DNA of 41,926 bases, from NCBI GenBank assembly GCA_946622085.1, contig CAMOPD010000002.1:1-41926 (forward strand), written 5' to 3'. This document shows positions 15,334 through 31,583 of this stretch, piece after piece. The notes under the pieces were generated by a model that ran no database searches, was not told the DNA's origin, and worked only from the letters and a program-made list of their open reading frames with translations. The position numbers and the translations under genes were made by a program. How positions within the stretch are numbered: the first letter of the stretch is position 1; the number at the start of each line of letters is the position of its first letter. The DNA comes from an uncultured Prevotellaceae bacterium. GTDB lineage: Bacteria > Bacteroidota > Bacteroidia > Bacteroidales > Bacteroidaceae.

Positions 15334-15339
15334 CAATGT

Positions 15340-15402
15340 GTTTTTCATAGTATTAGATTTAAGGTTAACAAGGTTGGTCTACGGCGGTAGACCATTTTTT
15401 TT
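15340..15402 (+). ncRNA. candidate small RNA, about 60 nt
   Basis: The predicted start is about 7 bases after the -7 element, and the predicted 3' end is in the T-tract of the hairpin at 15375-15402. The body is AT-rich and unstructured ('TTAGATTTAAGGTTAACAAG') before the GC-rich terminator stem. There is no start codon followed by a meaningful frame that would be complete before the terminator. It could be an independent regulatory RNA, or a short attenuated leader whose original downstream gene has been lost. Confidence 0.5.
15375..15402 (+). terminator. intrinsic terminator of the candidate small RNA
   Basis: TGGTCTAC and GTAGACCA form a perfect 8-bp stem around a GGCG loop, followed immediately by eight T residues. 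This is the clearest intrinsic terminator in the window apart from the one at 39463. Confidence 0.8.
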
Positions 15403-15430
15403 GCCCTTAAGTCTGGTGAGGGCACCTTCT

Positions 15431-19253: not shown

Positions 19254-19365
19254 GGTTCAAGGAGTTACAAGGAGTTCAAGGAGTTACAAGGTGTTCTGAG
19301 TTACCAGCTACGAATGACTCTGAACGCCGTGCAACTCCTTGAATCCATGTAACTCCTTGAACCCC
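19254..19365. repeat. inverted repeat built from CAAGGAGTT units
   Basis: The left arm has four near-identical 9-10 bp units (CAAGGAGTTA, CAAGGAGTT and variants), and the right arm (19331-19365) is its reverse complement with few mismatches. The inner part (AGTTACCAGCTACGAATGAC) matches the element at 28798-28946 (GAGTTACGAGCTACGAATGAC on the minus strand), so it is a dispersed repeat rather than a local accident. Confidence 0.75.
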
Positions 19366-19567
19366 TTGTTTGCATTACATAGAGAAAGTTGAGCAGTTTG
19401 GTGTGGGTTCGGCGCAAGAAGAGTGTTGGAATGTTTTTGGAAATGTAATGCTCTTATTGGTGTCTGTGGATAATGATTCGCTCAATAGTTCATCTCCGTC
19501 CATGAGCCCGTTTGAGAAGACTGCCGCACATCCGCTGGATGCTGCCTTCAGAATGACGGTTCTCTTT

Positions 19568-19775
19568 TTGTGAATTTTCTTTACAAAACGGAAGGACAGC
19601 CGTACCTGCTCGACCAGTAAGCACGCCACTCACGATGAGTAAGTGGCGTGCTTACGAGGCGTGAGTGGCGTGCTTACTACCCGTAAGTGGCGTTCTTACT
19701 CCCCTATACTGATTTTCAGCTCTTTACGGAGTCGTTATGCGAGGGCGCAAAAAGTTGTGAATTATTTTTACAAAA
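19568..19775 (-). repeat. 208-bp dispersed element, copy A
   Basis: It is bounded by 21-bp direct repeats (TTGTGAATTNTNTTTACAAAA, 19 of 21 identical). Inside are four palindromic half-sites of GTAAGCACGCCAC type (three GTGGCG[TG/TT]CTTAC forms and one in reverse). The reverse complement aligns without gaps to copy B at 31376-31583, also exactly 208 bp, with about 94% identity over the central 85 bp. Weaker similarity continues outward to a small hairpin at 19813-19828 (GTAGG/CCTAC). No ORF is evident. It may be a MITE-like or protein-binding repeat. Confidence 0.85.
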
Positions 19776-20240
19776 TGGCGAGCGTTTTCGTCGGGCTGTT
19801 CAGAATGCTCATGTAGGGACGCGCCTACGATCGAAGAGAATTGCCGGAACGCTTGTGTTGCATCATGAAGCATGTTTAGCTGAAACCCTTATGATTGGTG
19901 CCTGGTGAAACGACCTGACGGTCTTGCTGCCTGGCCGTCATGCAAGCCCCCCTCTGAGGAGTCTTTCTCAAAGCATCTCGTTTAATATGATTCACAATAG
20001 ATGTTATTGTTTTCCCTGGACACTTTGACGGCTTCCATTGGTTCGTCCGAAGGATGGAAAAGCCCCCTGAAAGGGCTTGAAAAGTGGATAAATGTAGGTT
20101 TTACACCTCTATATTTCGTCCACTCTTTTGCTTTTTGCCGATTTTGCTATAAGGCTGATAATCAGGCGAGTACAGATTTTCTGCCTTTCAAGGAATCCAC
20201 TTTTTCTGTTTTCTGCCAGACAAAGAGTGTTTTTTTCTTT
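19776..20240. other. gene-free spacer before the PUL
   Basis: I see no convincing gene. The short ORFs (73 and 100 aa) overlap repeat sequence or lack protein-like character. A CCCCCTGAAAGGGCTTGAAAAG segment near 20065 and AT-rich sequence lead up to the susC promoter. Confidence 0.5.
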
Positions 20241-20248
20241 TATCTTTG
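20241..20248 (+). promoter_or_regulatory. -7 element (TATCTTTG) of the PUL promoter
   Basis: TATCTTTG matches TAnnTTTG, but the expected -33 TTTG is missing 19-21 bases upstream. A poor -33 fits a promoter that needs an activator, as expected for an inducible PUL. The leader before susC is about 67 bases. Confidence 0.6.
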
Positions 20249-20321
20249 CAATCGGAACCCATTCTGCCGTGAAAACATCTTGAAAAACCATATACATTAT
20301 TAAATAACTAAAAACCAAAGT

Positions 20322-23300
20322 ATGAAAAAAAGCAGGTTACTCATGTTGCTATTGTCGCTCGTGGTGGCAGTGGCATCGCGTGCCCAAAGCATCTCGGGCA
20401 CGGTGACAGACGAACTGGGCGAACCGATTATCGGGGCTTCGGTTGTTGAGAAAGCAAACTCAAAGAACGGAGCGATTACCGATTTCAATGGCCAGTTCAG
20501 CATCAACGTGGCTGCGGGCACGCCCGTAGTCATCAGCTACATCGGCTATGTTTCTCAGGAACTGGCCGCCCGCGACGGCATGACCGTCACGTTGAAGGAA
20601 GACGCTCAGACGCTGAGCGACGTGGTGGTCATTGGCTACGGCGTTCAGAAGAAGAGTGTGGTGACGGCCTCCATTGCCAAGGTGAGCTCCGACGACCTGG
20701 ACGGCAAGACCCGTCTGCGTGCCGAGGATGCCCTGAAGGGCATGGCAGCGGGCGTGAACGTCACGTCGGCCTCGGGCCAGCCGGGAGCCAAGTCGATGAT
20801 TCGCGTGCGCGGTATCGGCACCATCAACGACTCCAATCCTCTCTACATCATCGACGGCATGCCCACCGACCAGGACGGTATGGAGAGCGTCAACCCCAAC
20901 GACATCGAGTCTATTGAGGTGCTCAAGGATGCTGCTTCGGGAGCCATCTACGGAGCCCGTGCCGCCAACGGTGTGATTCTTGTCACCACCAAGAAGGGCA
21001 AGATGGGCAAGGCCTCCATCAACTACAACTTCTCCTATGGCTGGCAGTCGGCCTGGAAGAAGCGCGACGTGACCGGTGCCACCGACTATGCCATACTGCA
21101 GAACGAGCGCCGCGTGCAGAACGGCCTGGCCCCGCTCTATGCCGACCCCTATCATCTGGTCGACGCCAACGGCGATGCCATCAAGGGATTTGGCACCAAC
21201 TGGCAGGAGCTGCTCTTCAACGACAATGCCCCCATTCAGCAGCACGACCTGAGCATCAGCGGTGCCTCAGAGAAGCTGAACTACTATCTTTCGCTCGGCT
21301 ATTTCGACCAGGAAGGAATCGTGGGCGGCAACTACGGACAGTCTAACTATGACCGTCTGACCATCCGCTCGAACAACCAGTACAATCTGTTTGACGCCTC
21401 GAAGGAGCGCAACTTCCTGAACAAGCTCGACATCGGGGCCAACATCTCCTATATGCGCGTGCACAGCACGGGCATCGATGCCAACTCCACCTGGGGCTCA
21501 CCCCTCGGCTCGGCACTCTATCTGGCCCCCACGCTGCCCGTCACGCTGAAGGGCGGCTATGACGCCGACGGCAGGGCCAACATCGGCCAGCGCATGATCG
21601 ACCAATATGCGGCCTACGAGCTCTTCACCGATGCCAACGGCAACCCCTACACTATTCCCAACTTCATTGGCAGCTATCAGGAGCAGAACAACCCCATGGC
21701 CATGATGATGCTCAACCCCACCAAGGGCTGGAGCCACAAGTTCATGCCCAAGTTCTCTATCGACCTGCAGCTGTGGGACCAGCTGAAATATCACTTCACC
21801 TACAGCGCCGAGCTCTCGTTCTGGGGCAACGAAGGAGCCACGCTGCAGAAGTACTACCTCTCGGGCAACAACAATGCCGACCACACCCAGGCCTCGGCCT
21901 ACAAGGGCAACAACACCACGTGGCAGATAGAAAACACGCTGACCTACGACAAGCAGTTCGGCCGTCACACCATCGGCGTGGTGCTCGGACAGAGTGCCCT
22001 GAAGTTCAAGGGCGACGAACTGGGCGGCTCTCACTGGTATCTGGTGAACACCGACAAGCCCTCCATCAACTACACCACGGGCGGCGACATTGAATTCTCT
22101 TACGACGGCGACGGCAAGATGACCGGTGCCAAGAGCCTCGTGGGAGTCTATGGCGGACCCTACGTGGAGCATCGGCTCTCGTCGCTCTTCGCCCGTCTGA
22201 GCTACAACTACGACGAGCGCTACATGCTGCAGGCCACCATCCGCCGCGACGGCAGCAGCCGCTTCGGTTCCAACAATAAGTATGGCACGTTCCCGTCGTT
22301 CTCCTTGGGATGGAACGTGATGAACGAGAAATTCATGGAGCAGACCCGCGACTGGCTCACCAACCTGAAGGTGCGCGCCAGCTGGGGAAAGAACGGTAAC
22401 GACAATATCGGCGACTTTGCCTATACCACGCTGACCGCACTCGGAGCCAGCAGCAACTACTACTTCGGACAGTCGGCCGCCATGGTGTATGGCTCAAAGG
22501 CCAACCGGCTGGCCAACGAAGACCTGAAGTGGGAGGAAAGCGAGCAGACCGACCTGGGACTGGACTTCGGCTTCTGGAACAACCAGCTCACCTTCAGCGT
22601 GGACTACTACATCAAGAAGACCAACGGCATGATTATCGAGATGCCCATCCCGAGCTACGTGGGTGAGGCCCGCCCGCTGGCCAATGTCGGCGACATGGAG
22701 AACAGCGGCTGGGAGTTTGAACTGGGCTACAAGTGGAACATCGCCGACGCCCACTTCGCCGTGAAGGGCAACGCCTCCTACCTGAAGAACAAGCTGAAGA
22801 ACCTGGGCAACGACACGGGATTCCTGAACTACGGCATCTCGCAGTTCAGCGACGGCGGCACACGCGCCGAGAACGGTCAGCCCTTCCCCTTCTTCTATGG
22901 CTACAAGACCGACGGCATCTTGCAGAATCAGGCTGAGGCCGATGCCTACAACTCAAAATATGGCACGTCGTCGAAGCCCGGCGACTTCCGCTTCGTCGAC
23001 ACCAACGGCGACAACACCATCACCAGCGACGACCGCACCAACATCGGCAACGGAGTGCCCGACTGGACCTTCGGACTGAACCTGGATGCCGAGTGGAAAG
23101 GCTTCGACCTGAGCCTCTTCTTCCAGGGAGTGAGCGGAGCCGACGTGTTCGACGCCACCTATCGCCAGGACATCGCCTCGGGCAACTATCCCACCTGGGT
23201 GCTCAACCGCTGGACCGGCGAGGGAACCTCCAACACCGTGCCCACGCTGGGCGACTCGAAAAACTGGGTGGTCAGCGATATGTATATACAAGACGGCAGC

Positions 23301-23531
23301 TACCTGCGCCTGAAGAATGTCACGCTGGGCTACACGCTGCCCCACAACCTGACCAACCGCATCGGCATCAGCCGCCTGCGCATCTTCGGCAGGGCTGAAA
23401 ACCTTCTCACGTGGACCAAGTATTGGGGCTTCGACCCGGAAATAGGTTCCGGCTCCACCAGTCTCGGTGTCGACTATGGCGTCTATCCGCAGGCCCGTAC
23501 CTACACCATTGGATTCAACATTTCACTTTAA
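20322..23531 (+). CDS. susC: SusC-like TonB-dependent outer-membrane transporter, 1069 aa
   Basis: The signal peptide (MKKSRLLMLLLSLVVAVASRAQ) is followed by a carboxypeptidase-regulatory-like beta domain ('SISGTVTDELGEPIIGASVV', residues about 23-95), which is typical of SusC proteins. Next come the 'VVVIGYGVQKK' TonB-box-like segment and the plug domain ('IRVRGIGTINDSNPLYIIDG', 'ANGVILVTTKKGK', about 110-225), then a 22-strand barrel with characteristic motifs such as 'RDGSSRFGSNNKYGTFPS' and a C-terminal 'TIGFNISL' strand. Length and architecture are normal. With SusD it forms the TonB-energised pore that imports glycan fragments into the periplasm. Substrate assignment to beta-glucan rests on the GH16 and GH3 genes downstream. 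It is the first gene of the PUL. Confidence 0.95.
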   Translation: MKKSRLLMLLLSLVVAVASRAQSISGTVTDELGEPIIGASVVEKANSKNGAITDFNGQFSINVAAGTPVVISYIGYVSQELAARDGMTVTLKEDAQTLSDVVVIGYGVQKKSVVTASIAKVSSDDLDGKTRLRAEDALKGMAAGVNVTSASGQPGAKSMIRVRGIGTINDSNPLYIIDGMPTDQDGMESVNPNDIESIEVLKDAASGAIYGARAANGVILVTTKKGKMGKASINYNFSYGWQSAWKKRDVTGATDYAILQNERRVQNGLAPLYADPYHLVDANGDAIKGFGTNWQELLFNDNAPIQQHDLSISGASEKLNYYLSLGYFDQEGIVGGNYGQSNYDRLTIRSNNQYNLFDASKERNFLNKLDIGANISYMRVHSTGIDANSTWGSPLGSALYLAPTLPVTLKGGYDADGRANIGQRMIDQYAAYELFTDANGNPYTIPNFIGSYQEQNNPMAMMMLNPTKGWSHKFMPKFSIDLQLWDQLKYHFTYSAELSFWGNEGATLQKYYLSGNNNADHTQASAYKGNNTTWQIENTLTYDKQFGRHTIGVVLGQSALKFKGDELGGSHWYLVNTDKPSINYTTGGDIEFSYDGDGKMTGAKSLVGVYGGPYVEHRLSSLFARLSYNYDERYMLQATIRRDGSSRFGSNNKYGTFPSFSLGWNVMNEKFMEQTRDWLTNLKVRASWGKNGNDNIGDFAYTTLTALGASSNYYFGQSAAMVYGSKANRLANEDLKWEESEQTDLGLDFGFWNNQLTFSVDYYIKKTNGMIIEMPIPSYVGEARPLANVGDMENSGWEFELGYKWNIADAHFAVKGNASYLKNKLKNLGNDTGFLNYGISQFSDGGTRAENGQPFPFFYGYKTDGILQNQAEADAYNSKYGTSSKPGDFRFVDTNGDNTITSDDRTNIGNGVPDWTFGLNLDAEWKGFDLSLFFQGVSGADVFDATYRQDIASGNYPTWVLNRWTGEGTSNTVPTLGDSKNWVVSDMYIQDGSYLRLKNVTLGYTLPHNLTNRIGISRLRIFGRAENLLTWTKYWGFDPEIGSGSTSLGVDYGVYPQARTYTIGFNISL

Positions 23532-23563
23532 TCACAGACATCAGTAATTAGAAATCTATCATT

Positions 23564-25114
23564 ATGATTACCAAGAAATATAACATCATGCGCAGCCTCT
23601 GTGTCAGCTGTCTTCTCTGTGCGCTCTGTGCTGCCTGCAGCGACGACTTCCTTGAGGTGAAGAATCCCACTGGCGAACCTCTCGAGGAATACTACACCAC
23701 CGAAGAGACACTCAACGAGGCCCTCACCTCGGCCTATGCTCCCCTGCACTGGCCCGACTGGGACAATGCCGCCTACAACGACCTGACCATCGACGGCGAA
23801 ATCATGGGCGACGACTTCTGGGTGGGCGGATCCGACAATACCGACAACCAGCACTGGCACCGGCTGTTCAACTTCGCCGGCGACGGCAACAACACGCTGG
23901 GCACCCTCTGGGGCGACTTCTACAGCGGCATCAAGCGCTGCAACGACGCCATCAAGTATGCCGGCTGGAAAAACAACGCCAGCGCCGCCTTCTGCCGCTC
24001 CATGGAGATGCAGGCCCGTCTGCTGCGCGTCTACTATTACAACATCCTGTGGCACTACTATGGCAACGTGCCTTTCTATCTGGAGAACCTCTCGCTGCCC
24101 TACACGGCCCCGCAGCTCTCGGCCGACGAGATATACAATCAGCTGCTGCCCGAACTGGAAGACATCATCGCCTCCAACGTGCTCCCCATGCGCTGGGAGA
24201 CTGCCGAGAGCGGCCGCGTGAGCCAGGCCTTCGCCTACATGCTCTACGCCGAGATGGTGATGTATCAGAACGATACGGCCCGCTATCCCCAGGCTCTCAG
24301 CTACATGAAGCAAATCATTGCTGACTCGAACTACTCGCTCAACCCCAGCTTCAGCAATCTCTGGAAGGAGAGTGGCGAGTGGTGCTCGGAGAGCATCTTC
24401 GAAATCAACTACAACGACGACCAGGCTCAGCGCGACTGGGGCAACGCTGCCATCAATGCCGGCGGCACCGTGTTCCCCACGCTCTGCTCGCCCAACGGCT
24501 GGGGCGGCGGCGAAGGCTGGGACGGCGGCAACGACGGCTGGGGCTTCCTGCCCATGAAGGTGGAGACCTACAATATGTACGACGAGAGCGACCTGCGCCG
24601 CGACGTCACCTGCTGGGACCTGCGTGGCTACAGCTACACCGAGCGCTATCAGGACACCCACATCTGGCATGGCAAGTATCGCCCGCAGTCGGACAACAAC
24701 AAGGACTGCCCCACGTCGAAGAACCTGAACTACAACAACAACAAGCGCATCTATCGCTACGCCGAGACGCTGCTCAATGCAGCCGAGCTGCTGCTCCAGA
24801 CGGGGGGCAGTGCGGCCGAAGCCACGGGCTACGTGAACGAAGTGCGCGCACGTGCCGGCCTGGGCGCACTCAACAACGTGACTATCGACGACATCTTCAC
24901 CGAGCGCCACCTGGAGTTCTGCGGCGAAGGCAAGCGCTACTTCGACCTCGTGCGTGCCGAGGGCATACCCGGGGCAACACAGAAAGCCTCTACAGTACTT
25001 GTTCCCGACAACTACGGCTATCGCACCAACTCATGGACACCCAGCAAGAAGCACATACCGCTGGCTCAGAGTGAGCTCGATGCCGACCCAACGTTGAAGC
25101 AAAACAATTATTAA
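23564..25114 (+). CDS. susD: SusD/RagB-family glycan-binding lipoprotein, 516 aa
   Basis: A lipoprotein signal ends 'LCALCAAC' with Cys25 as the lipidated residue, followed by SDDF acids that suit surface export in Bacteroidetes. Start ATG 23564 is used; ATG 23588 (MRSLCVS) gives a shorter, equally good signal peptide and may be the true start. The body shows SusD landmarks: 'YYTTEETLNEALTSAYAPL', the TPR-bearing helices, 'NEVRARAGLGALNNV' and 'FTERHLEFCGEGKRYFDLVR' near the C-terminus. Many aromatic residues in 'GWGGGEGWDGGNDGWGF' could line the binding site. It caps SusC and captures oligosaccharides. It is 32 bases after susC in the same operon. Confidence 0.95.
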   Translation: MITKKYNIMRSLCVSCLLCALCAACSDDFLEVKNPTGEPLEEYYTTEETLNEALTSAYAPLHWPDWDNAAYNDLTIDGEIMGDDFWVGGSDNTDNQHWHRLFNFAGDGNNTLGTLWGDFYSGIKRCNDAIKYAGWKNNASAAFCRSMEMQARLLRVYYYNILWHYYGNVPFYLENLSLPYTAPQLSADEIYNQLLPELEDIIASNVLPMRWETAESGRVSQAFAYMLYAEMVMYQNDTARYPQALSYMKQIIADSNYSLNPSFSNLWKESGEWCSESIFEINYNDDQAQRDWGNAAINAGGTVFPTLCSPNGWGGGEGWDGGNDGWGFLPMKVETYNMYDESDLRRDVTCWDLRGYSYTERYQDTHIWHGKYRPQSDNNKDCPTSKNLNYNNNKRIYRYAETLLNAAELLLQTGGSAAEATGYVNEVRARAGLGALNNVTIDDIFTERHLEFCGEGKRYFDLVRAEGIPGATQKASTVLVPDNYGYRTNSWTPSKKHIPLAQSELDADPTLKQNNY

Positions 25115-25156
25115 AATCCCCCCCTCATCACTTTAACACATTAATATTATATATAT

Positions 25157-27604
25157 ATGAAAAAGCTATTTCAATATATTGGCTGCGCGCTGCTTGCCGG
25201 ACTGGCCTTTACGGCCTGCTCGCCCGAGAGCTTCGATGGCGCAGACCAGACGAAGATACCAACCGTTGCCGGTCAGGACTTCACCATGGAAGTAGATCAG
25301 GAAGTCAACCAGGTGAGCGTCAGCTATCCTGAGACGGCAGGAGTCTATCCCATCTGGATATTCAATGGTGCCACCTATTCCACGCTGAACAAGGCTGGCT
25401 GGGCCAACACCAACGCCGGCACGTATACGGTGGAAATGAAACTGGCCAACCGCCATGGCGTCAGCCAGGGAACACTGAAGAAGACCTTCACCTTCAACGA
25501 GACGAAGGTCAACTATACCAGCCTGCTCAACCGCATTGCCGGCAAGGAGTGGCGCATCGACAGCGCCGAGCCTGCCCACATGGCCTGTGGCCCCTATGGC
25601 GGCGACGGCACGGGGTGGTGGAGTGCTGCTCCCAATGAGAAGAAAGACTTCGGCGTCTACGACGACCGCATCTCCTTTGTGGCCGAGAGTACGGTGGGCG
25701 GAGCGTTCACCTATAATCCCGGCGACGACGGCAACACCTATATTAATATAGGCTGCTCGCTCTGGGACAACGGCGGTGCCACAGCCGACTTCGACATGGC
25801 CAACCAGACGCAGACGTCCTCGTTCGAATTCAAGCGCGGACAGTGGACCGACAGCGAGGGCCAGGTTGTCGATGTGGACTATCTGGTGCTGGCTCCCAAC
25901 ACGTTCTTCCCCTACATCAGCAGCGACGACCAGTATCAGTCTCCCCGCTTCCGCATCGAGACGCTCACGGCCACCAAGATGGTGCTCGTATACGAGAAGC
26001 CCGACCAGAGCATCTCCTGGCGATTCATCTTCACCAGCAAGGAAGGCGAGAAGGCCTTCGAGGGATTTGATGCCAACAGTCAGTTCAACCTGTGGAAGGG
26101 CATCACGCCCACCATGTCGTTCCACTTCCAGCCCGGATGGGCCGACGTGCGCACCGGCGAGATGGAAGGCTCGTTCACGGCTGGCGACAACGACTATACC
26201 GTCAGCGTGCCCGATGCGTGCAACGATCGCTGGCAGGCACAGATGCACTTCCACACCAACCTCACCACCTCGGCTGCCAACCACTACGACTTCTCGTGCA
26301 TACTCAATGCCGACCGCGACATCGACGGCGTGACGCTGAAGCTCACGCAGGAAGACGATGCAGAGGCCATGATTGACGTGGCCGACATCAGCCTCAAGGC
26401 CGGAGAAGACTTCGTGTTCTGGAAGAGCGACCTCGAGGGCATCGACCTCAATCAGGTGAAACTCGTCTTCGACTTCGGACATGCCTCTGAGCCCACCACC
26501 GTCAACGTGCGCAACATCGTGCTGAAGGATCATGCCAACGACGATGGCACCGTGCTCCCCTCCGACGGCGATGACACGCCGGCCGTTTCGTGGGTGGCAG
26601 TGGATTCTCCCGACAACCTGGGAGCCGAGTTCAACAAGATAGGAACCATGCAGTTCTGGTGGGCCGATGCCGGCTGGGGACAGATTGGCGACCCGCAATT
26701 CTCTTATAGCAACGGCGTCTACACCATCACCGCCACCGAAAACGGCGGCAGCGAGTGGCAGGCACAAAACTCCATCCACAACGCCACGGTGAACATCGAG
26801 GCCGGACAGCTCTATGACATCCGTGCCAAGATTGAAGCCAGCGACGCACTGGGACGCTACACGTTCAAGATATGCGACGAGGGCGACGACGAAAATACGC
26901 TGGTCTACAATGGCCAGCTGACGCTGGAGCCGGGCGAGAACTACGTGGAGTTCATCGGCGTGAAGGCCCAGAAGAACGGTGCCGACACAGGCTTTGAGAA
27001 GGCCAAGCTCTTCATCGACCTCGGCGGTGCTCCCGTGGGCTTCGAGCTCTCCCTGAGCGACATCATCATCCAGAAGCACAGCGAAGGCGGTGCTGGCGGC
27101 AGCGGCCTGAGCTACGACAGCGACGCCAATCTCTGGAAGAATGTAGATAGTGGCGACGGGCTCGTAGGCGTCTCTCCCTGGTTTGCCAACCAGAGCTGGG
27201 CGCAGATTGCCGACCCCGAATGGTCGCACAGCGGCAAGACGTGGTCGCTCACGCTGCCTGCCGAGATGGGTTCCTCTCAGTGGCAGGGCCAGTTCCCCAT
27301 CCACACCAATATTGCCACGAAGCAGGCCGACAAGTACAGCTTCTCGTGCACGCTGCTGGCCGACAACGACTGCGAAGGCGTCACCATCAAGCTCACCGAG
27401 AGCGACGACGACCAGAAGCACGACTCCAACTTCTACTTTGCCGAGCGTCATGACCTCAAGGCCGGCGAGCCCTACGTCTACACCGTGAAGGGAGCCACGC
27501 TGCCCCTCAACGACGCCCATGCACTCTCGCTGTTCTTCGACTTCGGCGGTTCGCCCGTCGGCACCTATGTTGAAATCAGCGACATCATTCTCATCAAGGA
27601 ATAG
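25157..27604 (+). CDS. surface glycan-binding lipoprotein with tandem CBM-like domains, 815 aa
   Basis: A lipoprotein signal ends 'LAFTAC' (Cys21). Residues of about 30-110 look like a PKD/Ig-like domain. A beta domain follows with 'WWSAAPNEKKDFGVYDDRISF' (similar to C-terminal domains of Bacteroides glycan-binding proteins). Then come three similar modules of about 150-170 residues, near 310-470, 495-650 and 665-815. Each has a 'W...W.Q' core ('DRWQAQMHFHTN', 'SEWQAQNSIHN', 'SQWQGQFPIHTN') and ends in a strand like 'LFFDFGGSPVGTYVEISDII'. This resembles CBM4/9-type jelly rolls. Position after SusD marks it as the SusE/SGBP-B equivalent, which binds polysaccharide at the surface. Three tandem modules should raise avidity for long glucan. 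Confidence 0.85.
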   Translation: MKKLFQYIGCALLAGLAFTACSPESFDGADQTKIPTVAGQDFTMEVDQEVNQVSVSYPETAGVYPIWIFNGATYSTLNKAGWANTNAGTYTVEMKLANRHGVSQGTLKKTFTFNETKVNYTSLLNRIAGKEWRIDSAEPAHMACGPYGGDGTGWWSAAPNEKKDFGVYDDRISFVAESTVGGAFTYNPGDDGNTYINIGCSLWDNGGATADFDMANQTQTSSFEFKRGQWTDSEGQVVDVDYLVLAPNTFFPYISSDDQYQSPRFRIETLTATKMVLVYEKPDQSISWRFIFTSKEGEKAFEGFDANSQFNLWKGITPTMSFHFQPGWADVRTGEMEGSFTAGDNDYTVSVPDACNDRWQAQMHFHTNLTTSAANHYDFSCILNADRDIDGVTLKLTQEDDAEAMIDVADISLKAGEDFVFWKSDLEGIDLNQVKLVFDFGHASEPTTVNVRNIVLKDHANDDGTVLPSDGDDTPAVSWVAVDSPDNLGAEFNKIGTMQFWWADAGWGQIGDPQFSYSNGVYTITATENGGSEWQAQNSIHNATVNIEAGQLYDIRAKIEASDALGRYTFKICDEGDDENTLVYNGQLTLEPGENYVEFIGVKAQKNGADTGFEKAKLFIDLGGAPVGFELSLSDIIIQKHSEGGAGGSGLSYDSDANLWKNVDSGDGLVGVSPWFANQSWAQIADPEWSHSGKTWSLTLPAEMGSSQWQGQFPIHTNIATKQADKYSFSCTLLADNDCEGVTIKLTESDDDQKHDSNFYFAERHDLKAGEPYVYTVKGATLPLNDAHALSLFFDFGGSPVGTYVEISDIILIKE

Positions 27605-27654
27605 ACAGTTCTTAACATTTCAAACAACGATTACATTTTAAACAATCAATAGCA

Positions 27655-28764
27655 ATGAAGAAGATGTTTATATATTCATTACTGATGGTCTGCTCCGGGC
27701 TGATGGCCAGTTGCGGCGACGACACCTATAACATGCCAGGCGAACCGGCCCCCAATGCCACCATAACCAGCTCGAAGGAGAGCTTCAGTGCAGCCTACGA
27801 GGGAGAGTCCTTCACGCTCGAAGCCACCACCACGGCTGCCGAATGGAACGCCTACAGCAACGAAGAGTGGATCAGCGTGAGCACGGAGAATACTGCCTCA
27901 AAGTCGGGAACCGTCGTCGTGACGGTTTCCGAGAACCCTGACCCCTATGCACGTCAGGGCTCTGTCATCATCATGTCGGGCACCGCCCGCAAATACATTC
28001 CCGTGGCTCAGGAGGCGGCTCCCAAGTCGGCCTACAATGCTCCCGAAGGCTATTCGCTGGTGTGGCACGACGAGTTCGACGAGGGCTCAGAGCTCAATGC
28101 CAACGACTGGACCCACGAGGTGTGGGGCAAGGGCACGGTGAACGATGAGAAACAATACTACGTGAACCACGTCACCCCCGCCGGGGCCAAGGTGACCGAA
28201 ATCAAGGACGGCAAGCTCCGCATCAACTGTCTTCTGGAGGACGGCAAGGTGTATTCAGGCCGAGTCTATGCCAAGGTGAAGGAAGGCTGGACCTACGGCT
28301 ACATCGAGGCCTCCATCAAGCTCCCCAAGGGCAAGGGCACGTGGCCTGCCTTCTGGATGATGCCCGTGAACTTCAAGTCATGGCCGGCCGACGGCGAAAT
28401 AGACATCATGGAAGAGGTGGGCGGACACCCCAACTACGTCAGCAGCTCGCTGCATGCCAATGCCCACGTGCACAGCAACAACACGCAGGTGACCCACGAG
28501 ATGTATCTTGAAGGTGCCGAAGACGACTTCCACACCTATGCCATACAATGGACGCACGAGAACATCACCACCTACGTCGACGGCCAGGTGCAGCTCTCTT
28601 ACGACAACCGCGGACTGGGCCGCGACGACTGGCCCTACGACGATCCGTTCTACGTCATCCTCAATCTGGCCTGGGGCGGCACGTGGGGCGGCACCTACGG
28701 CATCGACGAGAGTGCCTTGCCCTGCACCATGGAGATTGACTACGTTCGCGTATTCCAGAAGTAA
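27655..28764 (+). CDS. BACON-GH16 endo-beta-glucanase lipoprotein, 369 aa
   Basis: A lipoprotein signal ends 'GLMASC' (Cys20) with GDD after it, which suits surface exposure. Residues of about 38-122 form a BACON domain ('EWNAYSNEEWISVSTENTAS'). The GH16 jelly roll follows, beginning 'YSLVWHDEFDEGSELNANDW' and holding the catalytic signature 'GEIDIMEEVG' with nucleophile Glu248, Asp250 and acid/base Glu253. The ExDxxE form with the extra Met is that of beta-1,3(4)-glucanases and laminarinases rather than agarases or carrageenases. It should cut mixed-linkage beta-glucan or laminarin at the cell surface. It follows the binding-protein gene by 50 bases with no promoter between. Confidence 0.93.
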   Translation: MKKMFIYSLLMVCSGLMASCGDDTYNMPGEPAPNATITSSKESFSAAYEGESFTLEATTTAAEWNAYSNEEWISVSTENTASKSGTVVVTVSENPDPYARQGSVIIMSGTARKYIPVAQEAAPKSAYNAPEGYSLVWHDEFDEGSELNANDWTHEVWGKGTVNDEKQYYVNHVTPAGAKVTEIKDGKLRINCLLEDGKVYSGRVYAKVKEGWTYGYIEASIKLPKGKGTWPAFWMMPVNFKSWPADGEIDIMEEVGGHPNYVSSSLHANAHVHSNNTQVTHEMYLEGAEDDFHTYAIQWTHENITTYVDGQVQLSYDNRGLGRDDWPYDDPFYVILNLAWGGTWGGTYGIDESALPCTMEIDYVRVFQK

Positions 28765-28797
28765 ACGTTTTTAGGGTAATGTGAACAAAGAGTACAT

Positions 28798-28946
28798 GGA
28801 GTTTTCAAGGAGTTCAGAGTTACGAGTGACAAGTTTTGAGTTTGAAATAGCCTTATGCGCCAAAAGTAATCACAACTCGTCATTCGTAGCTCGTAACTCC
28901 GAACTCCTTGAACTCCCTGGACTCCTATAAACTCCTTGAACACCTT
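28798..28946. repeat. inverted repeat (CTCCTTGAACTCC family) between GH16 and GH3 genes
   Basis: The left arm 28798-28827 (starting GGAGTTTTCAAGGAGTTC) pairs with the right arm 28890-28916 (CTCGTAACTCCGAACTCC...). A further ACTCCTTGAAC unit reaches to 4 bases before the GH3 ATG. It shares its inner GAGTTACGAGCTACGAATGAC (minus strand) with the element at 19254-19365. The structure can fold in the mRNA and could reduce read-through or translation of the GH3 gene. Confidence 0.7.
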
Positions 28947-31208
28947 ATGAAGAAACTATTCCTTTCGGCAGTCGTGGCTATGGCTTGGCTGACTGCCGCT
29001 ACCCAGACTACGCCCGTCTATCTGGACGAAAGCCGACCCGTGGAAGAGCGTATCGACGACGCGCTGAGCCGCATGACGCTCGACGAGAAGATAGCCGTCA
29101 TCCACGCTCAGAGCAAGTTCTCATCGCCCGGCGTCCGACGGCTGGGATTCCGCGACTTCTGGACCGACGACGGGCCTCACGGCGTGCGCCCCGACGTGCT
29201 CTGGGACGAATGGGAGCAGGCCGGACAAACCAACGACTCGTGCGTGGCCTTCCCCGCGCTGACGTGCCTGGCCGCCACGTGGAACCCCGCCCTCGCGCGC
29301 CTCTACGGAGTGAGCCTTGGCGAAGAGGCCCGCTATCGTGGCAAGGACATGATTCTCGGCCCCGGCGTCAACATACTGCGCACGCCGCTCTGCGGCCGCA
29401 ACTTCGAGTATATGGGCGAAGACCCCTTCCTCGCTTCGCGCATGGTGGTGCCCTATGTGCAGGGCTTGCAGTCGCAGGGCGTGGCTGCCTGCGTGAAGCA
29501 CTACGCGCTGAACAACGATGAAGACTTCCGCCATCAGGTGAACGTCATCGTCGGCGACCGTGCCCTCCACGAAATCTATCTCCCAGCCTTTCGCGCTGCC
29601 ATCGTCGAGGGCGGAGCGTGGGGCATCATGGGAGCCTACAATCTCTATCAGAACCAACACAATTGCCATAATGCCACGCTGCTCAACAAGATTCTGAAGG
29701 GCGACTGGCAGTTCGACGGCGTCGTGGTGAGCGACTGGGGCGGATGCCACGACACCTACGAGGCCGTGCACAACGGGCTCGACATGGAGTTCGGCACCTG
29801 GACCGACGGACTCACCATGGGCGCCACCAATGCCTACGACATGTATCACCTGGCCAACGCCTACAAGCAGGGCATCAAGGAGGGAAAATACACCACCAAG
29901 GAGCTCGACGAGAAGGTGCGCCGCGTGTTGCGGCTCTTCTTCCGCACCACTATGAACCGCCAGCGTCCGCTGGGCTTCCTCTGCTCGGAGAGCCATTACG
30001 AGGCCGCGCGGCAGATAGCCACCGAGGGCATCGTGCTCCTGCGCAACGAGCGGGTGGGGGGCAGGAAAGGCGCGCCCGTGCTGCCGCTCCGTCTGTCCAC
30101 CATGAAACGCCTGTTGGTGGTGGGCGAGAACGCCATCAAGATGATGACCGTGGGCGGCGGCTCGTCGTCGCTCAAGGTGCAGCGCGAGGTGCTGCCCCTC
30201 GACGCCCTGCAGCAGCTGTGCGCCAGCCAGGGCGTGCAGTGCGACTACGCCCGTGGCTACGTGGGCGACACCGTCCAGAGCTACAACGGAGTCACCGTGG
30301 GGCGCAGCCTCTACGACCTGCGAACGGCGCAGGAGCTCATCAGCGAAGCCGTGGAGAAAGCCCGCGGAGCCGACTGCGTCATAGTCTTCGGCGGGCTCAA
30401 CAAGAGCAGCTATCAGGACTGCGAGGGCACCGATCGCAAGAACTACGGACTGCCTTACGGCCAGGATGCGCTCGTGGAAGCGCTCGCCAAGGCCAATCCG
30501 CGGCTGGTGTTCGTCAATATCTCGGGCAATCCCGTGGCCATGCCCTGGCTGCAGCGCGTGCCCGCGGTGGTGCAGGGCTGGTTCATTGGCTCGGAGGCCG
30601 GTCATGCGCTGGCCGACGTGCTCACGGGCCGCGCCAACCCCTCGGGCAAGCTGCCCTTCACGTGGTGGCAGTCGCTCGGCGACGTGCCTGCCCATCGGCT
30701 GGGGGCCTATCCCGGCACGTGGCGCGCCGACGAGAAGATCATCGACGAGGAGTATAAGGAAGGCCTCTACGTGGGCTACAGGGGCGTCGACCACTTTGGT
30801 GTGAAGCCGCTCTTCGCCTTTGGCCACGGACTGAGCTACACCACCTTCCGTCTGGGCAAGGCTACGGCCAACCGGCCGCGGCTGCACCAGGGCGATAGCC
30901 TCACCTTCAGCATCGACGTCACCAACACCGGCAGCCAAGCCGGTGCCGAGGTGGTGCAACTCTACGTGAGCCACCTGAAGCCAGCCTTGCCACGGCCCAA
31001 GAAAGAGCTCAAGGCTTTCCGGAAGGTGGAGCTGCAGCCCGGCGAGACGCGCCGCGTCAGCCTCACCATCGGCACCGACGCCCTCAGCTACTACGACGAC
31101 CGGCAGCAGCAGTGGACAGCCGAGCCCGGCAGCTACCAGGCGCTCATCGGAACTGCCTCCGACCGCCTCGCCGCCGTCGTCAACTTCACGTTGGAGGCCT
31201 ACAAGTAA
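28947..31208 (+). CDS. GH3 beta-glucosidase, 753 aa
   Basis: ATG 28947 (MKKLFLSAVVAMAWLTAATQ) is preferred over the track's 28908, because it gives a clean signal peptide and the earlier 13 codons are repeat sequence. The N-terminal barrel has 'GFRDFWTDDGPHGVRPDV' and the nucleophile motif 'VVVSDWGG' (Asp263). The second domain has 'GKLPFTWWQSLGDVP' and 'FAFGHGLSYTTF', and a C-terminal FnIII-like domain ends the protein. This is the standard three-domain GH3 layout. There is no lipobox, so it should be periplasmic and release glucose from imported beta-gluco-oligosaccharides. It is the last enzyme gene of the PUL and is separated from GH16 by a 182-base repeat-filled gap. Confidence 0.93.
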   Translation: MKKLFLSAVVAMAWLTAATQTTPVYLDESRPVEERIDDALSRMTLDEKIAVIHAQSKFSSPGVRRLGFRDFWTDDGPHGVRPDVLWDEWEQAGQTNDSCVAFPALTCLAATWNPALARLYGVSLGEEARYRGKDMILGPGVNILRTPLCGRNFEYMGEDPFLASRMVVPYVQGLQSQGVAACVKHYALNNDEDFRHQVNVIVGDRALHEIYLPAFRAAIVEGGAWGIMGAYNLYQNQHNCHNATLLNKILKGDWQFDGVVVSDWGGCHDTYEAVHNGLDMEFGTWTDGLTMGATNAYDMYHLANAYKQGIKEGKYTTKELDEKVRRVLRLFFRTTMNRQRPLGFLCSESHYEAARQIATEGIVLLRNERVGGRKGAPVLPLRLSTMKRLLVVGENAIKMMTVGGGSSSLKVQREVLPLDALQQLCASQGVQCDYARGYVGDTVQSYNGVTVGRSLYDLRTAQELISEAVEKARGADCVIVFGGLNKSSYQDCEGTDRKNYGLPYGQDALVEALAKANPRLVFVNISGNPVAMPWLQRVPAVVQGWFIGSEAGHALADVLTGRANPSGKLPFTWWQSLGDVPAHRLGAYPGTWRADEKIIDEEYKEGLYVGYRGVDHFGVKPLFAFGHGLSYTTFRLGKATANRPRLHQGDSLTFSIDVTNTGSQAGAEVVQLYVSHLKPALPRPKKELKAFRKVELQPGETRRVSLTIGTDALSYYDDRQQQWTAEPGSYQALIGTASDRLAAVVNFTLEAYK

Positions 31209-31300
31209 TAGCAGAGCTACGAGTTCAGAGGCGTGATAACTATTCGTGCTTAAGAAAACAAATCCATTCCCGCTGTTTACATTCGGTAGTGGGTTTGTCT

Positions 31301-31345
31301 GTTTCCACATAGGGGCGTGCCATCGGCACGCCCCTATGTGGAAAC
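31301..31345. repeat. perfect 21-bp hairpin with 3-base loop
   Basis: GTTTCCACATAGGGGCGTGC... pairs perfectly over 21 bp with its inverted copy around an ATC loop. No T-tract follows, so it is not a standard terminator. A degenerate counterpart (GTAGGGACGCGCCTAC) lies at the matching distance from copy A of the 208-bp element, so it appears to be part of the same larger unit. Confidence 0.8.
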
Positions 31346-31375
31346 GTGCTAAACAACCCATGGAGATGCTCTTGG

Positions 31376-31583
31376 TTTTGTAAAATAATTTCATAACTTT
31401 TTCACCCCTTCCAGCACCCTTCCGTAAAGTGCTGAAAATCAGTATCGGGAAGTGAGAACGCCACTTACGATGAGTAAGCACGCCACTCACGCCTCGTAAG
31501 CACGCCATTTACTCATCGTGAGTGGCGTGCTTACTAAATGGAAATGAACGGGCGCATCCCTATTATGTAAAAATAATTCAAAG
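31376..31583 (+). repeat. 208-bp dispersed element, copy B
   Basis: It is flanked by 21-bp direct repeats of TTTTGTAAAAATAATTCACAA type. The core has three CGCCA[C/T] half-sites at 31459, 31481 and 31503 (exact 22-bp spacing), followed by one inverted copy. It aligns without gaps to the reverse complement of copy A. It lies between the GH3 gene and the promoter of the regulator gene. Confidence 0.85.

Follow-up and report, generated by a model that had tools for sequence, protein, structure and literature searches.

A dispersed, modular intergenic repeat with a 22-bp dyad array in an uncultured Prevotellaceae bacterium

Known modular repeats and the element at this locus

The closest described systems are modular, interspersed repeats. 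In Porphyromonas gingivalis, the BrickBuilt MITE consists of 1 to 23 tandem units of 23 nt placed between a leader and a tail, and its 12-bp terminal inverted repeats, of GAGACC type, match those of IS5-family elements (PMC4596501). BOX elements of Streptococcus pneumoniae are modular (boxA-boxB(n)-boxC), intergenic and present in high copy number (PMC3049150). In enterobacteria, BIME-1/REP repeats are made of palindromic units alternating in orientation, and BIME-1 has an IHF-binding segment (PMC2817692).

The element reported here resembles BrickBuilt in being found in Bacteroidota, in its intergenic and dispersed position, in its tandem short units and in its lack of coding capacity (PMC4596501). 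However, its units are dyads of exactly 22 bp, its 21-bp ends are near-palindromic and direct, its sequence is unrelated, no IS partner was found for it, and its ends read TTGTGAA-N5-TTTACAAA rather than being IS5-type 12-bp inverted repeats. As in BOX, two ends surround a tandem array of an internal module, but boxB is longer, the phylum is another one and the sections of that source used here describe no 22-bp dyad phasing (PMC3049150). With BIME-1 it has in common an intergenic position, high copy number and inverted palindromic units (in copies A and B described below, not in all subfamilies), whereas REPs have a greater length, a GTAG tag and a link to RAYT transposases (PMC2817692), and the element keeps strictly to 22 bp in its array, has AT-rich ends and is without a RAYT. 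The IHF-binding segment of BIME-1 has a putative counterpart in an IHF-like tail motif, for which statistical support is weak. Attachment sites of tyrosine integrases (attP/attL type) combine core-like near-palindromes, a host-factor-like site and an array of arm-like sites. The element resembles them in each of these respects and differs in having no integrase inside, many dispersed copies and no known circular form.

The element is a new family of modular interspersed intergenic repeat of the BrickBuilt, BOX and BIME-1 kind, and probably a new variant. A light search of the open-access literature found no description of a dyad array with an exact two-turn period that differs in sequence from one species to the next and yet retains its geometry, nor of arrays of such a kind in Prevotella. 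It is this persistence of the geometry through sequence change that makes the element interesting.

The two copies around the PUL and their modules

The window, i.e. the whole stretch of 41,926 nucleotides that was analysed, is one contig of a draft genome that is 73% complete and in 222 contigs. Copy A has an MFS sugar-transporter gene on one side and susC on the other, copy B a GH3 gene and the gene of a SusR-type regulator; the genes between the two copies are susC, susD, an unassigned gene, GH16 and GH3 (Table 1). An earlier note on this DNA had described them as inverted copies of equal length that align without gaps, and positions, length and alignment all hold. Aligned ungapped to the reverse complement of B, copy A is 78.4% identical across 208 bp and, where the note had put about 94% for the centre, 94.1% identical over the 85 bp from 19616, with a longest exact run of 35 bp; in a shuffled-sequence control the best 85-bp window reached 46% at most. 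The note was equally right that no ORF lies inside (no gene is called within either copy), that three same-direction units in B are exactly 22 bp apart (starts 31452, 31474 and 31496) and that similarity continues outward to a hairpin, a perfect 21-bp inverted repeat that adjoins B. Copy A likewise has three same-direction units (starts 19639, 19661 and 19683), and in both copies the one remaining unit of the four is inverted. The 21-bp direct repeats said to bound each copy are clear in A and more decayed in B.

Table 1. Positions of the features of copies A and B in the window; identities are mean pairwise values among copies
Feature	Position	Strand	Identity	Remark
Copy A, whole element, 208 bp	19568..19775	+		
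Copy A, outer left module, GCACATC..GCCTTCAGAATGACGG	19525..19567	+		common to part of the copies
Copy A, left end, near-palindrome TTGTGAATTTTCTTTACAAAA	19568..19588	+	0.86	
Copy A, array, four 22-bp units	19617..19699	+	0.92	
Copy A, 17-bp dyads	19617, 19639, 19661, 19683			first unit inverted
Copy A, 19-bp tail motif CTGATTTTCAGCTCTTTAC	19709..19727	+	0.93	IHF-like
Copy A, right end, near-palindrome TTGTGAATTATTTTTACAAAA	19755..19775	+	0.87	direct orientation
Copy A, outer right module, ends in TGTAGGGACGCGCC	19776..19830	+		common to part of the copies
Copy B, whole element, 208 bp	31376..31583	-		inverted
Copy B, outer right module	31301..31375	-		includes perfect 21-bp inverted repeat 31301-31345
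Copy B, end next to tail motif, TTATGAAATTATTTTACAAAA	31376..31396	-		end-motif search
Copy B, tail motif CTGATTTTCAGCACTTTAC	31424..31442	-		
Copy B, array, four 22-bp units	31452..31534	-		17-bp dyads 31452, 31474, 31496, 31518
Copy B, other end	31562..31583	-		decayed; blastn-type search

In order, the element consists of an end (an AT-rich near-palindrome of 21 bp), an array of four or five 22-bp dyads, the tail motif and the same end again. Conservation is concentrated in these blocks (Table 1), while the stretches between them diverge (identity 0.56, 0.79 and 0.71, with 0.49-0.57 in the flanks). The few matches to the outer modules in 442 kb all lie near an element. The end palindromes carry variable 5-nt centres and stand in direct orientation here, but inverted in another genome, G017. 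A target-site duplication as the origin of the 21-bp direct repeats was ruled out because the centre on the left does not predict that on the right (identical in 5 of 36, against 6.5 expected) and the elements show no outer target-site duplication (p = 0.24).

The array unit is GTRARTGGCGTKCTYAC plus 5 nt, and most of its 17 positions are almost invariant among 260 unit matches. At the symmetric positions 3 and 15, changes are associated in a compensatory sense (p 3e-5, the units not being independent), and wobble-type changes at symmetric positions are found on both strands, which favours recognition of double-stranded DNA over selection for an RNA hairpin. Unit 1 is inverted relative to units 2-4 in A and B but not in all subfamilies, some of which have every unit in one orientation. 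Such a periodic palindrome array would offer two dyads per period, one every 11 bp or about one helical turn.

The window holds three further features. A lone tail-like motif, CTGATAATCAGGCGAGTAC, lies upstream of susC (20155-20173, +) without an array; simple repeats of ACTCCTTGAACTCCTTG type are present at 19255-19369 and 28785-28946 (17 matches in 442 kb, mostly away from elements); and positions 15338-15405 (+) match RF04319, the Bacteroidetes FopS family of paralogous sRNAs, in Rfam (76.9 bits).

A dispersed family and a geometry that recurs with other sequences

The BLASTN copy count proposed in the earlier note gives about 40 copies in the own genome (blastn-type search), and the end motif, with at most one mismatch, has 96 matches there, against 0 for a reversed control. 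The family comprises at least about 50 dispersed intergenic repeats. Further diverged subfamilies were seen among the end-motif matches examined, where paired elements measure 194-301 bp. Over 442 kb the copy-A/B family contributes 16 arrays, about one per 28 kb, and all array families taken together 24, about one per 18 kb; 24 of 25 arrays are intergenic. The elements are, as MITEs are, short (50-1000 bp), non-coding and present in many dispersed copies. End-motif matches often fall within about 100 bp of contig ends (e.g. C55, C62, C77, C98, C123 and C176), so the element count is probably a minimum and the elements probably fragment assemblies. Neither of the refuting conditions that the earlier note had set (two copies only, or part of a known IS or rRNA-type repeat) holds, there being dozens of copies and no match to the copy-A/B element in Rfam or in plasmid and phage collections. 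The own array had 0 matches among the other named species, a set without the own genome and its closest neighbours; sequences from these may also be missing from the other collections.

Arrays of the same period and other sequence recur. A scan of periods from 12 to 44 bp over 400 kb of the own genome detected 19 arrays with a 22-bp period and 4 with a 21-bp one; no other period was seen more than twice. They include three further families, built on GTTGACTGGAGTCAAC, on CGAGCACGCCGCTCG and on the 21-bp AATCACGACGTGATT. One has 22-bp units GTTGACTGGAGTCAAC / GTTGACTTAAGTCAAC and inverted TTGCTGTCTGTTGAC ends (L193:5110, L195:13936, L199:2928, L204:10278), and another the 21-bp units AATCACGACGTGATT and inverted AAACTAAAATCACG ends (L194:2443, L194:14560, L209:6830). 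In an unbiased sample of 20 other genomes of the genus (339 kb in all, taken from the start of one contig per genome and limited to 20 kb each), 10 arrays had a 22-bp period and every other period was represented by 2 at most; no 22-bp array was found in a viral sample (197 kb) or in 100 kb of E. coli. G254 carries GAAACGGTCCGTTTC arrays and G017 AAAACCTACGCTTTT arrays. In G228, the nearest relative found, there are about 35 arrays of 21 bp in 1.01 Mb. They are TAAAGTGGCACTTTA arrays beside TTYTCTAGARAA palindromes (e.g. L157:12954, L160:908, L163:15450); arrays often adjoin these palindromes, of which there are 92 in the same 1.01 Mb. The short gaps between end palindromes measure 84-85, 106, 127 and 148 bp, that is 64 + 21n, and element length in G228 is quantised by 21 bp.

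Of 18 array families, 11 have a unit with significant dyad symmetry, a property found in 2.4% of random 22-mers; in the other 7 the symmetry does not reach significance. Several array pairs of the own species and G228 look position-conserved by eye; a systematic test of conserved position fell short of significance (10/27 versus 6/26, p = 0.21). Units descended from one common ancestor could share a period without selection for that period.

The tail motif (CTGATTWTCAGCNNNTTAC) is a conserved block resembling an IHF site. The IHF consensus is WATCAANNNNTTR; tail examples from G017 and G254 agree with it in full, and copies A and B deviate at two positions. IHF-like sites are weakly enriched near arrays; the motif may be read, from its sequence, as a candidate bend site for an IHF/HU-type protein. 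In the form CTGATWWTCAGCNNNTTAC it is present in 52 of 200 genomes of the genus (the reversed pattern in 0), and in several of these it adjoins 22-bp arrays of different sequence. Scanned over species genomes, one form gave 22 matches, all in Bacteroidota, some of which adjoin 22-bp arrays, including one in Bacteroides timonensis, while others adjoin tRNA genes or integrases. The distance to tRNA genes is 4-43 bp in eight examined loci (L096, L107, L113, L271, L278, L286, L287 and L292), and integrase genes are near in L107, L111 and L284. Mobile elements of Bacteroidota may commonly use the tail motif as a host-factor or attachment site. A phage origin of the motif was rejected, its 21 viral-contig matches being scattered.

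It is a tentative proposition, to which we would give clearly less than even weight, that Prevotella-type genomes and at least one Bacteroides (the breadth beyond the genus coming from a few loci) contain intergenic elements of one general type, built from helically phased 21/22-bp dyad arrays. From species to species their sequence would be replaced altogether, with spacing and symmetry, and in many cases the companion tail motif, retained. This would imply an undescribed DNA-binding or recombination system co-evolving with its own sites.

Alternative readings and the preferred one

The elements are dispersed through the own genome and are likely to be mobile. No element was detected in the G228 regions orthologous to copy A, to a GTTGAC-family array on C14 and to copy L026 (3 of 3), and no clean empty site is readable because of the divergence to G228. 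The search for a mobiliser covered few families. Between the end motifs no autonomous version was seen in the own genome, and its available 73% contains no DDE_Tnp_1 domain (IS4-type partner) and, of tyrosine recombinases, only XerC and a partial XerD. This last result counts against the view of the repeat as a mini-attachment element that serves a tyrosine recombinase and that an integrase moves in trans; the end repeats would then be core-type sites (inverted arms, 5-nt overlap) left direct by integration, the tail a host-factor site and the array a set of arm-type sites. Near-palindromic, direct ends with variable 5-nt centres are what this view would predict, and the tRNA and integrase genes near the tail motif are consistent with it. 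However, the tRNA-associated matches are different loci without copy-A/B ends, and dozens of dispersed copies are unusual for site-specific integration, and we consider it unlikely. Mobilisation of a REPIN/BIME by a RAYT (Y1 transposase) would account for palindromic units, partly inverted doublets, intergenic position, species-specific sequences and high copy number, but appears very improbable: the Y1_Tnp domain is absent from the own genome (73% complete), G017 (94%) and G012 (99%), all of them element carriers, and the own units are without a GTAG-type tag.

That selection acts on RNA, with transcribed hairpins serving as attenuator, terminator or mRNA stabiliser, is suggested by the folding of A and B, which on both strands is far better than that of shuffled sequence (z -5.3 to -7.8), units 1 and 3 pairing in a stem of 19 bp. 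This stem is missing, however, from subfamilies whose units all point the same way, and the two-strand wobble changes, the missing Rfam match and the lack of a consistent gene-context bias toward 3' ends in two species also speak against an RNA element, which we find improbable; a 3'-end or terminator role was rejected for want of that bias. Scarcely credible is a device of the PUL. Copies A and B do flank susC-susD-GH16-GH3 in inverted orientation, as insulators or inversion sites would, but with about one copy per 28 kb two copies 11.6 kb apart are unremarkable (about one chance in three for neighbours), and in G228 the orthologous stretch between the MFS and SusC genes yielded no array. Inversion of the PUL by recombination, which the earlier note had envisaged, fares no better, the longest exact A/B run being 35 bp and XerC and a partial XerD the only tyrosine recombinases found in the draft genome. 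What stands of that proposal is the MITE-like layout and the likeness of the 22-bp, two-turn array to protein-binding sites; the special tie to the PUL and the inversion role find no support.

Our preferred reading, which we hold to be evenly balanced between right and wrong, takes the element for a modular repeat of intergenic regions, dispersed and non-autonomous in the manner of MITEs and BIMEs, whose array would be a helically phased, multi-dimer protein-binding platform. A dimeric DNA-binding protein would bind the array cooperatively and, with a dyad every 11 bp, or about one helical turn, all dimers would lie on one face of the DNA. Bending of the tail motif by an IHF/HU-type protein could then bring array and ends together in one nucleoprotein complex, which either would have copied the element around the genome or would represent a nucleoid function for which the element is kept. 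Since the exact two-turn period and the dyad symmetry are kept despite sequence change, the array would be the bait of choice for a binding protein or mobiliser.

As sister species have other repeats of the same 21-22-bp geometry, the element looks like a member of a widespread and undescribed kind of repeat that, judging from sequence, would be mobile and protein-binding, rather than a PUL-specific device. Arrays occur about every 18 kb in the own genome, related species have their own and assemblies are probably fragmented by them; such a class of arrays would give Bacteroidota a counterpart of the BIME and BOX repeats.
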